In this document: piece by piece, positions 28,217-31,141 of the stretch
How the letters are laid out: each line of letters begins with the position of its first letter
Numbering within the stretch: position 1 is the stretch's first letter
DNA from: Bacillota bacterium
GTDB taxonomy: Bacteria; Bacillota; Limnochordia; Darwinibacteriales; Darwinibacteriaceae
Length of the DNA stretch: 32,048 nucleotides
Assembly (NCBI GenBank): GCA_012518645.1
Contig: JAAYRS010000133.1
Span: 1-32,048 of the forward strand
Direction of reading: 5' to 3'
Translations under genes and position numbers: made by a program
The notes under the pieces: generated by a model
Told to the model about the DNA's origin: nothing
The model's input: only the letters and a program-made list of their open reading frames with translations
The model's database searches: none

Positions 28217-29053
28217 TTAGAAGCGTTTCAGAAAAACGCCCTGCCGTAATTTTTTTAGGCTTATAGCCGCTAAATAACCTAGGCCGGCGATAATTACAAT
28301 TACAGCCCCCGCCGGCAGGTTTAGATTGTAAGAAAAGACTAAACCCGTTAAAGTGAAAGCTAAGCTGAAAGCGACCGATAAACCCATCATCCGCCCTAAT
28401 TTCCCGGTCCATAACCCGGATACCGCCGCGGGTAATGTCAAAAGGGCAATTACCAAGATTAAACCCACGATTTTAATTAGGATCACTACTGTCAAAGCAA
28501 TCAAAACTAAAAGCAGAATATATAGAAGTTCAACGGATAAGCCGCGCAGCCGTGCTTCTTCCTCATCGAAGGCCACAAGCATAAATTGCCGGTAAAAGAC
28601 GGTAACAACCAAAGCGATAATTAGGTTTAAATAGATCAAAACCCGCAGGACCGGATTTGTGACCATTAAGATGTTACCAAAAAGGAAGCTCATTAAGTCC
28701 ACATTATAACCGGGAGTCAAAGACATGAAAATGATCCCTACGGCCATCCCAATTGCCCACAGGGCGCCAATAATGGTGTCTTCGTGCTGCTTCGCTTTTA
28801 AATTCACCAAGCCTAAAACCACCGCGGAGAAAACCGCGGCGGCTACGGCTCCTAAGAGGGGGTCTGCTCCCAAATAGTAAGCGACCCCCATCCCGCCCAA
28901 GACTGTGTGAGCGATTCCTCCACTGATAAAGGTAATCCGCTTGACTACAACATAAGTGCCAATCAATCCGCTGGCAAAGCTGGATAAAATCGCGGCCAGG
29001 ACCGCGTTTTGCATAAAACTATATTTCATTAACACAGAAATAAATTGATTCAT
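28217..29053 (-). CDS. znuB: Metal ABC transporter permease (ZnuB-like)
   Basis: A 278-residue ABC-3 family membrane protein with about eight to nine hydrophobic segments. Diagnostic stretches are GTYVVVKRITFISGGIAHTVLGGMGVAYYLGADPLLGA, DTIIGALWAIGMAVGIIF, FGNILMV and LIKIVGLILVIALLTLPAAV. It forms the membrane channel for zinc or manganese with the ATPase encoded 20 bp upstream. It is the last gene of the metal-uptake operon. Zinc is favoured by operon context but manganese cannot be excluded. Confidence 0.92.
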   Translation of the reverse strand: MNQFISVLMKYSFMQNAVLAAILSSFASGLIGTYVVVKRITFISGGIAHTVLGGMGVAYYLGADPLLGAVAAAVFSAVVLGLVNLKAKQHEDTIIGALWAIGMAVGIIFMSLTPGYNVDLMSFLFGNILMVTNPVLRVLIYLNLIIALVVTVFYRQFMLVAFDEEEARLRGLSVELLYILLLVLIALTVVILIKIVGLILVIALLTLPAAVSGLWTGKLGRMMGLSVAFSLAFTLTGLVFSYNLNLPAGAVIVIIAGLGYLAAISLKKLRQGVFLKRF

Positions 29054-29073: not shown

Positions 29074-29805
29074 CTATAAGGCGCAGCGATGCTCAATCAT
29101 TTCCACAGGACTCTGATACAAACCGGAAACAACATCAGCACTGATTTCTTCAACGGTGTGGACCGCCAATTTTCGATTTAAGCAGGCCACTTGATCGACA
29201 TAAGTGGAAACAAATCCCAGATCATGGGAAACAATGATAATGGTAAGTTTTTTATTTAAGTCGGCCAGAAGCTCATAGATGTCTTGTTCTACCCGACTAT
29301 CCACACTGGCAGTCGGTTCATCTAAAATCAACAGTTTGGGATCAGCTACCAAAGCCCGGGCTAAAATCACCCTTTGTTTCTGCCCGCCGGACAGCTCACC
29401 GTAGCGCTGCCCTGCCAAATTTTCTATGCCCAGAGCAGACATGGCTTCTTGAGCTGCGAGATAATCCGCCGCCGAATAGCGGGGAAAAAAGGCCTGGGGG
29501 TGAAGCCTGCCCATCAAGACCACTTCCAAAGCAGAAACCGGGAAGCTTTGATCAAAAAGCCCATGTTGGGGTACATAGCCAATCCACTTGCGGGCTTTTT
29601 TAGGGCTAACGCCAAAAACCTCAATTTCACCCTTCTTGGGCACTAGCGAACCAAGCAAAAGGCGTACTAGTGTTGTTTTCCCGCCCCCATTAGGGCCAAT
29701 CACCGCCAAATAATCTTTTTCTCTAACTTCCAGATTCAGATCTTCCAAAATCAAACGCTGATTATAAGCAAAGCTAACTTGGCGCAGTTTAATCACAGTT
29801 GTCAT
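29074..29805 (-). CDS. znuC: Metal ABC transporter ATP-binding protein (ZnuC-like)
   Basis: A 243-residue ATPase with Walker A GPNGGGKTTL, Q-loop YVPQH, signature LSGGQKQR, Walker B LLILDEPTASVD and H-loop VSHDLGFVS. GPNGGGKTT and the short C-terminal tail EMIEHRCAL are typical of zinc/manganese uptake ATPases. Its ATG overlaps the stop of the binding-protein gene by four bases, indicating coupled translation. Confidence 0.93.
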   Translation of the reverse strand: MTTVIKLRQVSFAYNQRLILEDLNLEVREKDYLAVIGPNGGGKTTLVRLLLGSLVPKKGEIEVFGVSPKKARKWIGYVPQHGLFDQSFPVSALEVVLMGRLHPQAFFPRYSAADYLAAQEAMSALGIENLAGQRYGELSGGQKQRVILARALVADPKLLILDEPTASVDSRVEQDIYELLADLNKKLTIIIVSHDLGFVSTYVDQVACLNRKLAVHTVEEISADVVSGLYQSPVEMIEHRCAL

Positions 29806-30689
29806 TGTTCTTGCTCCTTTTGAATAACCCGAGCAATTTGCCGCAGGTTAGAAAGATAATCCTCCGCCAAGGGGTCAATTTTGACAACCTTGGCTCCCAC
29901 CGCCTCAGCCACTGAATAGGCTGCTTGCGCAGAAGATTGTTCTTCCACAAAAATCACTTTGATCCCCTCTGTCTCCGCCAGCTGCACAAATTCCGCCAAG
30001 GCCCTGGGCCCCGGCTCTTTCCCTTCTACTTCAATGGGAATCTGCTCCAACCCGTAGCGATCAGCCAAGTAACCCCAAGCAGGATGAAATACCATTAACT
30101 TAGGCGTCGGCAGGGAGCTAAAGATGGCCGCCAACTCTTGATGCAGTTGCTCTAATTCCGCCAAGAATTCGGCCAAATTCTGCCCGTAAAAATCTCTTTT
30201 AGACGGATCTGCCAGAGACAGTTCCTTGTAAATTGTCTCCCCTTGGACTTTAACCAAAAGGGGATCGAGCCAAATGTGGGGATCAGCCACTTCCAGCTCT
30301 GCCTGCCCGCCGCGGGCCCCTTCTATACGCCTTAGCTGAAGGCCTTGGCGGGTATCTACAACCTTCAGCCGAGGGTTTAGTTCCTCGATCCTGCCCATCC
30401 AGATAGTTTCAAAGGGAACCCCAATCCGGAAATAGAGGGCCGCTTCTGCTAAGGCGGCCATCTGCTGCGGCAGGGGCTCGTAGACCGCGGGGCTCTGACC
30501 GGGACCCACTAATACAGAAACCTGGACAGCATCTCCCCCGATCCGTTCCACAAAAAACTTTTGGGGCAGAATACTAACAAAAACTTGCAAACGCTCCTGT
30601 CTAAAATCAGCAGCTGAGACTAGGCCAGCAGCGAGAGTTAACAACAATATTAAGAACACCAACAGCCGGCATTTCCAAACTCTATCCAT
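29802..30689 (-). CDS. Metal ABC transporter substrate-binding protein (ZnuA/TroA family, variant site)
   Basis: A 295-residue cluster A-I binding protein with signal peptide RLLVFLILLLTLAAGLVSA and no lipobox. Metal ligands expected in the family: His138 (DPHIW), His202 (FHPAWGY) and Asp272 (KIDPLAED) are present, with Glu249/250 near the site. The first canonical His (in GPGxxPHxYEP) is Ala68 here (GPGQSPAVYEP). The His/Asp-rich loop common in zinc binders is absent. It may therefore use a three-ligand site or another residue, and the metal is uncertain. It lies 53 bp after the RHH regulator gene and overlaps the ATPase gene. Confidence 0.88.
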   Translation of the reverse strand: MDRVWKCRLLVFLILLLTLAAGLVSAADFRQERLQVFVSILPQKFFVERIGGDAVQVSVLVGPGQSPAVYEPLPQQMAALAEAALYFRIGVPFETIWMGRIEELNPRLKVVDTRQGLQLRRIEGARGGQAELEVADPHIWLDPLLVKVQGETIYKELSLADPSKRDFYGQNLAEFLAELEQLHQELAAIFSSLPTPKLMVFHPAWGYLADRYGLEQIPIEVEGKEPGPRALAEFVQLAETEGIKVIFVEEQSSAQAAYSVAEAVGAKVVKIDPLAEDYLSNLRQIARVIQKEQEQ

Positions 30690-30742: not shown

Positions 30743-31003
30743 CTATTCCAATTCACAGACGATATGAAAAGAATGGCAGTCCCGGCACTTTTTCACGCTG
30801 TGATTTTCACTGAATTCTTGCCAATGTTCCAGTTGATCCGCGGAAAGCATACCTGTGCCCCGGCATAAAGGGCAGGTGCTGTCTAAAGCTGCTAGAATAG
30901 CTTTGCGGATAAACTCGGAACGGTTCGGGATCCCTTCCATGGCTTTGTTCAATTCCTCATTGACTTTAAACGTAATTATTTCCCTTTTCTTAGGCCGGCT
31001 CAT
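30743..31003 (-). CDS. Ribbon-helix-helix regulator with Cys-rich metal-binding tail, candidate metal sensor
   Basis: An 86-residue protein from ATG 31003 (GGAGG seven bases upstream; the in-frame ATG at 31027 precedes that site). Residues 7-40 (REIITFKVNEELNKAMEGIPNRSEFIRKAILAAL) form a ribbon-helix-helix DNA-binding domain. Residues 44-83 carry CPLCRGTG, His60, His68, CRDCHSFH and Cys83: two CxxC pairs plus extra Cys and His, as in DnaJ-type zinc knuckles. It is the first gene of the metal-uptake operon and its promoter has a direct repeat between the -35 and -10 boxes. A metal-dependent autorepressor, analogous in logic to NikR or Zur but with a different architecture, is inferred. Confidence 0.8.
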   Translation of the reverse strand: MSRPKKREIITFKVNEELNKAMEGIPNRSEFIRKAILAALDSTCPLCRGTGMLSADQLEHWQEFSENHSVKKCRDCHSFHIVCELE

Positions 31004-31039
31004 TTTCTTTCCTCCATTTTTAAGCATATTCTAATCCCT

Positions 31040-31068
31040 ATAGTATTACATCGTATTACCATTGTCAA
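31040..31068 (-). promoter_or_regulatory. Promoter of the metal-uptake operon with GTAATAC direct repeat
   Basis: On the minus strand TTGACA (31068-31063), a 17-bp spacer and TACTAT (31045-31040). Two copies of GTAATAC (31059-31053 and 31049-31043), exactly 10 bp apart, fill the spacer and run into the -10 box. A dimeric RHH protein contacting one face of the helix would block the promoter. Confidence 0.75.
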
Positions 31069-31104
31069 GTTTAATGTTCCTCTAGGAAAATATCTAAAGA
31101 TCTT

Positions 31105-31141
31105 AAAAAGCCTTCTTGATCCTGCCGGGCCCAAGAAGGCT
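31105..31141 (-). terminator. Terminator of the VOC-family gene
   Basis: AGCCTTCTT/AAGAAGGCT, a perfect 9-bp stem (31109-31117 and 31133-31141), with a 15-nt GC-rich loop and a T-run on the minus strand. It separates this gene from the metal-uptake operon. Confidence 0.75.

Follow-up and report, generated by a model that had tools for sequence, protein, structure and literature searches.

The window analyzed here, the whole 32,048-nucleotide stretch of a Bacillota genome, contains an operon on the minus strand with the order ribbon-helix-helix (RHH) gene, znuA, znuC, and znuB. The leading RHH gene (30743..31003, minus strand) codes for an 86-aa protein with a Cys/His C-terminal module and is supported by its open reading frame and by the alignments of its homologs. 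A GGAGG lies just 5' of the ATG at 31003, which gives the 86-aa product; the start in the list of open reading frames is 31027, eight codons earlier. Downstream, also on the minus strand, are a znuA-type metal-binding protein of cluster A-I (29802..30689; Pfam ZnuA, PF01297, E = 2.6e-66), a znuC-type ATPase that overlaps the znuA stop by 4 bases (29074..29805; Pfam ABC_tran, PF00005, E = 2.2e-29; NCBIfam AztA/ZnuC below the cut-off), and a znuB-type permease (28217..29053; Pfam ABC-3, PF00950, E = 2.1e-71). As a ZnuA-family protein, an ABC-3 permease, and an ATPase are found together in one operon, we can classify the system as a cluster A-I importer (Znu/Mnt/Adc), a family that carries Zn, Mn, or Fe. 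MntC was among the NCBIfam matches, all of which fell below the cut-off. Two Fur-family genes are located elsewhere in the genome.

The closest solved structure to the window ZnuA is 2ov1/1pq4 (E = 1.3e-69), which we take to be the zinc-uptake ZnuA of Synechocystis. The full ligand set of a binding protein of this kind is not present, as the window protein reads PAVYEP versus PHTYEP in Synechocystis ZnuA (Ala for His), and this replacement of the first ligand His clouds the identity of the substrate. The His residues of DPHIW and FHPAW are retained. The ZnuA proteins of several relatives also have this first His replaced by Ala, Ser, or other residues (e.g., PATYEP) while keeping DPHIW and FHPAW, and this ZnuA lineage may coordinate its metal differently.

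The window RHH protein has only sub-threshold Pfam matches, to RHH_1 (E = 0.0057, 17.0 bits against a cut-off of 20.5) and to DnaJ_CXXCXGXG (E = 4e-4, below the cut-off). Among 21 family members, RHH_1 matches 5 (best E = 7.6e-5), DnaJ_CXXCXGXG matches 14, and NCBIfam aCcr1, which we take to be an RHH family, matches all 21 (best E = 3.7e-7). The aCcr1 match to the window protein spans residues 9 to 38 and reaches 27.8 bits, below the curated cut-off of 60. The RHH assignment is well supported, although the window protein formally stays under the curated thresholds. An AlphaFold monomer model of moderate quality (pLDDT 78, pTM 0.37) contains helices at residues 16-22, 28-41, and 55-67 and strands at 68-72 and 79-83, and no N-terminal strand was assigned in it. 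A PDB fold search with this model gave no match at E < 1, a result that is uninformative because a monomer of an intertwined dimer was modeled.

The tail follows the layout CPLCxGxG...H...H...CxxC...C, with C44, C47, H60, H68, C73, C76, and C83 as putative ligands. Its first half resembles the zinc modules of anti-TRAP and DnaJ at the level of sequence profiles, with a shared CPxCxGxG followed by a helix and a weak similarity to RtpA (E = 6e-4). Unlike those modules, it is fused to an RHH domain and continues with H68, C73xxC76, and C83, whereas anti-TRAP and DnaJ are not DNA-binding metal sensors.

A promoter scan identified, on the minus strand, a -35 element TTGACA (31063..31068) and a -10 element TACTAT (31040..31045) separated by a 17-nt spacer. 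This spacer is filled by the predicted operator GTAATAC-GAT-GTAATAC (31043..31059, minus strand), whose two heptads have their centers 10 bp apart, the second one overlapping the -10 element. The exact pair occurs only once in the window genome (2.06 Mb), with no further pair at one mismatch, and it is kept upstream of relatives. In the region between this promoter and the neighboring glyoxalase-like gene (window positions 31100-31141) there is also an inverted repeat, AAAAAGCCTTCTTG...CCCAAGAAGGCT, that could be a transcription terminator; it was spotted by eye and was not reported by the promoter scan.

Our survey covered about 1,100 genomes. Genome searches recovered the window and five relatives in its class, eight more in the phylum, and, in two further phyla (that of Desulfosediminicola and that of an uncultured Spirochaetia genome), 27 positive genomes out of 345 each. 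A scan of public genomes contributed 25 loci with homologs, one of which (L026) is a DnaJ-like false positive. Desulfopila aestuarii and Desulfosediminicola flagellatus are cultured bacteria that carry the gene. Excluding the planctomycete relatives, this amounts to 72 distinct loci, the window included, and 71 of them have assessable neighbors, L032 being left out of the linkage count because its contig ends before them. A znuA or znuB gene was found within about 1.5 kb of the RHH gene in 62 of these 71 loci (window included). The nine unlinked loci all belong to Spirochaetota; they keep all seven ligands, so that the ligand set alone is no proof of a role as an uptake sensor, and eight of them have no operator. 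One unlinked Spirochaetota homolog with an operator (L153:4048-5135) faces a gene of the DUF1007 family, which is often found with metal transporters. Another unlinked homolog (L151:4050-7349) is divergent from a Peripla_BP_2 and FecCD transporter pair.

The seven ligand positions (C44, C47, C73, C76, C83, H60, and H68) are kept in essentially all 72 aligned sequences and across phyla, the lone mismatch at C76 being probably the artifact of a one-residue insertion (compare L002). There is no such conservation at H77 or H80. The operator is also conserved, with the consensus GTAWTAC-N3-GTAWTAC, in which each heptad is palindromic about its middle base. Across 57 operator sites, positions T2, T5, A6, G11, T12, A13, T15, and A16 do not vary, and all four combinations of the middle bases of the two heptads are represented (AA 17, TA 16, TT 14, and AT 9). 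As the heptad is palindromic and every combination is found, the boxes have no fixed direct or inverted orientation, and the motif is a tandem of two palindromic heptads with a 10-bp spacing, direct or inverted about equally in relatives.

Several of these features had been described in a first-pass annotation made without database searches. The 86-aa open reading frame at 30743..31003, its leading position in a znu operon, the TTGACA-N17-TACTAT promoter (31068..31040, minus strand), and two GTAATAC boxes 10 bp apart all held. The location of these boxes between the -35 and -10 elements held in part, since the second overlaps the -10 element, and their description as a direct repeat has to be corrected to palindromic heptads. 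The proposed Cys/His cluster was also partly confirmed, with the seven positions above conserved and H77 and H80 not.

Among linked operons with upstream sequence, the operator was exact in 34 and had one mismatch in 23. At up to one mismatch it was detected in 59 of the 62 znu-linked operons versus one of the nine unlinked loci (Fisher p = 1.3e-7). L116 and L119 have an operator with two mismatches, and in L108 a one-mismatch pair is found about 500 bp upstream. The genomes G111 and G152 have the gene order znuA-C-B-RHH with the operator (one mismatch) upstream of znuA, which indicates that the operator tracks the start of the operon and not the RHH gene. Seven operons contain more than one operator pair, and in 19 of 57 operons, including that of the window, a recognizable -35/-10 pair spans the boxes. 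When the upstream regions of the linked set were shuffled, a pair with at most one mismatch was never reached in 1,220 trials, and the repeat pair is thus far beyond chance.

The operator seems to be quite specific across genomes. The exact site is present in 13 of 21 RHH genomes, once in each and always at the RHH operon, and a reversed control gave no matches. Allowing one mismatch, the site is present in all 21, and additional sites appear at roughly the frequency of the control. An exact site in G044 is near a different gene, not its znuA, and was judged to be chance. The idea of a wider regulon in the window genome was rejected, as no second site was found at up to one mismatch. The regulator is likely to have a single target, an inference from operator searches without binding data, while Zur usually controls many genes.

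We also analyzed znu loci without the RHH gene. Of the 73 genomes in the class of the window, a ZnuA gene is present in 70 and the RHH gene in only 6. The operator was absent, even at two mismatches, from all 30 sampled znuA loci lacking an adjacent RHH gene. A Fur-family gene adjoins znu in 8 of these 30 loci versus none of the RHH-linked ones within the stretch examined (Fisher p = 6e-5). On an 81-tip ZnuA tree, RHH linkage changes 2 times, compared with at least 18 in shuffles, and the distance matrices of RHH and ZnuA correlate with a rho of 0.62, against a permutation maximum of 0.34. Sequence comparison thus shows that the RHH gene, the operator, and the ZnuA lineage travel together and that RHH and ZnuA co-evolve. 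This pattern of linkage, operator, and co-evolution is repeated in at least three groups of phylum rank.

The planctomycete homologs (L008-L025) are about 35 to 46% identical and have a longer tail with extra CxxC pairs and a GWH...H.H end. They keep C44, C47, H60, C73, and C76, have lost C83, and mostly do not have H68. No GTAWTAC pair was found upstream of them, with a single box in 1 of 18, and at the two loci inspected (L018 and L019) the RHH gene directly precedes a pyridoxal-dependent decarboxylase gene. We consider them a sister RHH family. From the comparison with these relatives we can infer one possible division of the tail, in which C44/C47/C73/C76 would form a structural site and H60/H68/C83 would add a sensory one. 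Caution is required here, as the nine unlinked Spirochaetota homologs also retain H68 and C83.

Operon linkage, ligand conservation, operator conservation, and the tracking of the operon start by the operator are all shown by sequence comparison, and the regulator, its operator, and the importer form a conserved unit. Our main reading, to which we give a probability of about 0.78, is that the 86-aa protein is a metal-dependent local autorepressor of the metal-uptake operon, most likely responding to zinc. DNA binding, repression, the identity of the metal, the direction of the response, and the oligomeric state are all inferred, as there are no binding or expression data. Dimers of the RHH N terminus would occupy the two adjacent GTAWTAC boxes of the promoter, probably with each box taking a single dimer and both dimers lying on the same face of the helix, and would block RNA polymerase. 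The Cys/His module (C44/C47/C73/C76 plus H60, H68, and C83) would bind a thiophilic divalent metal (zinc being the most likely) and couple its availability to DNA binding. The metal-replete protein would repress, and metal starvation would free the promoter and induce both regulator and importer. Zinc is likely to be the metal sensed rather than manganese, because the putative site is rich in thiols and the binding protein has its closest solved counterpart in a zinc-binding ZnuA, although this is inferred and not shown. The first-pass annotation had proposed an RHH autorepressor of metal uptake sensing zinc or manganese, which every comparative test supports, with metal dependence remaining an inference and zinc now preferred over manganese. 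Two of the checks it suggested were run and passed: homologs lie next to metal-transporter genes (62 of 71 loci), and conservation of both the box pair and the Cys/His positions extends over at least three phylum-level groups.

The strongest alternative is that the Cys/His module has a purely structural role, as a zinc ribbon stabilizing the dimer, or that it senses something else, such as the redox state, so that the operon would be autorepressed but not by metal. In its favor, the homologs without znu neighbors retain all seven ligands, the tail is similar to the CxxCxGxG sites at which DnaJ and anti-TRAP hold structural zinc, and the planctomycete relatives retain C44/C47/H60/C73/C76, with two inspected loci located beside a pyridoxal-dependent decarboxylase. 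However, H68 and C83 are invariant in the znu-linked set, providing more ligands than a single structural site needs, and C83 is missing from the planctomycete relatives, as is H68 from most of them. Metal sensing is also the simplest account of a single-target regulator of a metal importer, and we regard the structural alternative as unlikely.

We give even less weight to a repressor sensing manganese or iron and controlling a cluster A-I importer for these metals. The transporter family does include manganese and iron importers, MntC appears among the NCBIfam matches (all below the cut-off), and the first ligand His is absent from several ZnuA proteins of the set. Against these points, the closest solved structure is a zinc-uptake ZnuA, and by coordination chemistry a Cys-rich site favors zinc over manganese, which makes this possibility very improbable. 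The last alternative, a non-sensor RHH protein (for instance, an antitoxin-like one) placed beside the operon by chance and with coincidental repeats, can be practically ruled out. RHH proteins are common and often antitoxins, but no toxin partner is present, the next gene is znuA, znuC, or znuB in linked loci, and the combination of linkage, operator, and co-evolution is found in three phylum-level groups. A chance neighborhood was rejected by the linkage of 62 of 71 loci, and a chance repeat was rejected by the absence of any pair at up to one mismatch in 1,220 shuffles of the linked set.

Compared with known systems, the proposed zinc autorepressor is similar in design to NikR, the established RHH metal sensor. 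Both would combine an RHH N terminus with a metal-binding C terminus, with the metal-loaded form repressing an ABC metal-uptake operon. The 86-aa protein differs in having no ACT-like C-terminal domain and in the type of importer, a cluster A-I ZnuABC-type system. A NikR identity was rejected, as a Pfam scan up to E = 1 gave no match to NikR_C (ACT-like). A NikR-type operator was also rejected: half-sites of NikR are widely separated, and here two GTAWTAC heptads are adjacent, with a 3-bp gap and a 10-bp spacing. Tandem short palindromic boxes are instead used by RHH repressors of the MetJ, CopG, and omega types, which share this operator architecture but have no metal-binding tail and respond to another ligand or partner. 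AdcR, a zinc-uptake repressor encoded with its importer operon, has the winged-helix MarR fold, and the Pfam scan gave no MarR model match for the 86-aa protein.

Known bacterial zinc-uptake repressors are either Fur-type (Zur) or MarR-type (AdcR). We found no description of an RHH zinc regulator in the open-access full text searched, subscription papers and preprints being outside the scope of this search. A CopG-family gene of Paracoccus changes its expression under zinc depletion (PMC5387054), its relation to the RHH family described here being untested. The protein is thus likely to represent an apparently undescribed second kind of RHH metal sensor besides NikR, with an unrelated tail, metal sensing itself being inferred. 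We lean, with some reserve, towards a bolder reading in which it defines an undescribed family of zinc sensors made of an RHH domain and a seven-ligand tail, acting on a single znuABC target through tandem GTAWTAC heptads, present in at least three phylum-level groups, and taking the place of Zur at this locus. If this is true, the RHH fold has been recruited for metal sensing more than once. With a defined operator and only a few ligand residues to consider, the idea can be tested directly, and a 17-bp site found essentially once per genome is a compact candidate for a metal-responsive promoter part.

The comparison with Zur also bears on the relatives of the class. The proposed job, repression of znuABC, is the same, and some RHH-less relatives have a Fur-family gene beside znu; the fold, the operator, and the presence of only one genomic target set the 86-aa protein apart. 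A Zur/Fur identity was rejected, as the protein has no match to the Fur domain (PF01475). If correct, the proposed sensor would explain zinc control in operons without a Zur partner. The RHH-less loci with a Fur-family gene beside znuA are L158, L160, L161, L163, and L173-L176, and in several of these Fur-adjacent loci a palindrome resembling TGATAC-NNN-GTATCA lies close to the promoter and is a candidate Zur box for the class.
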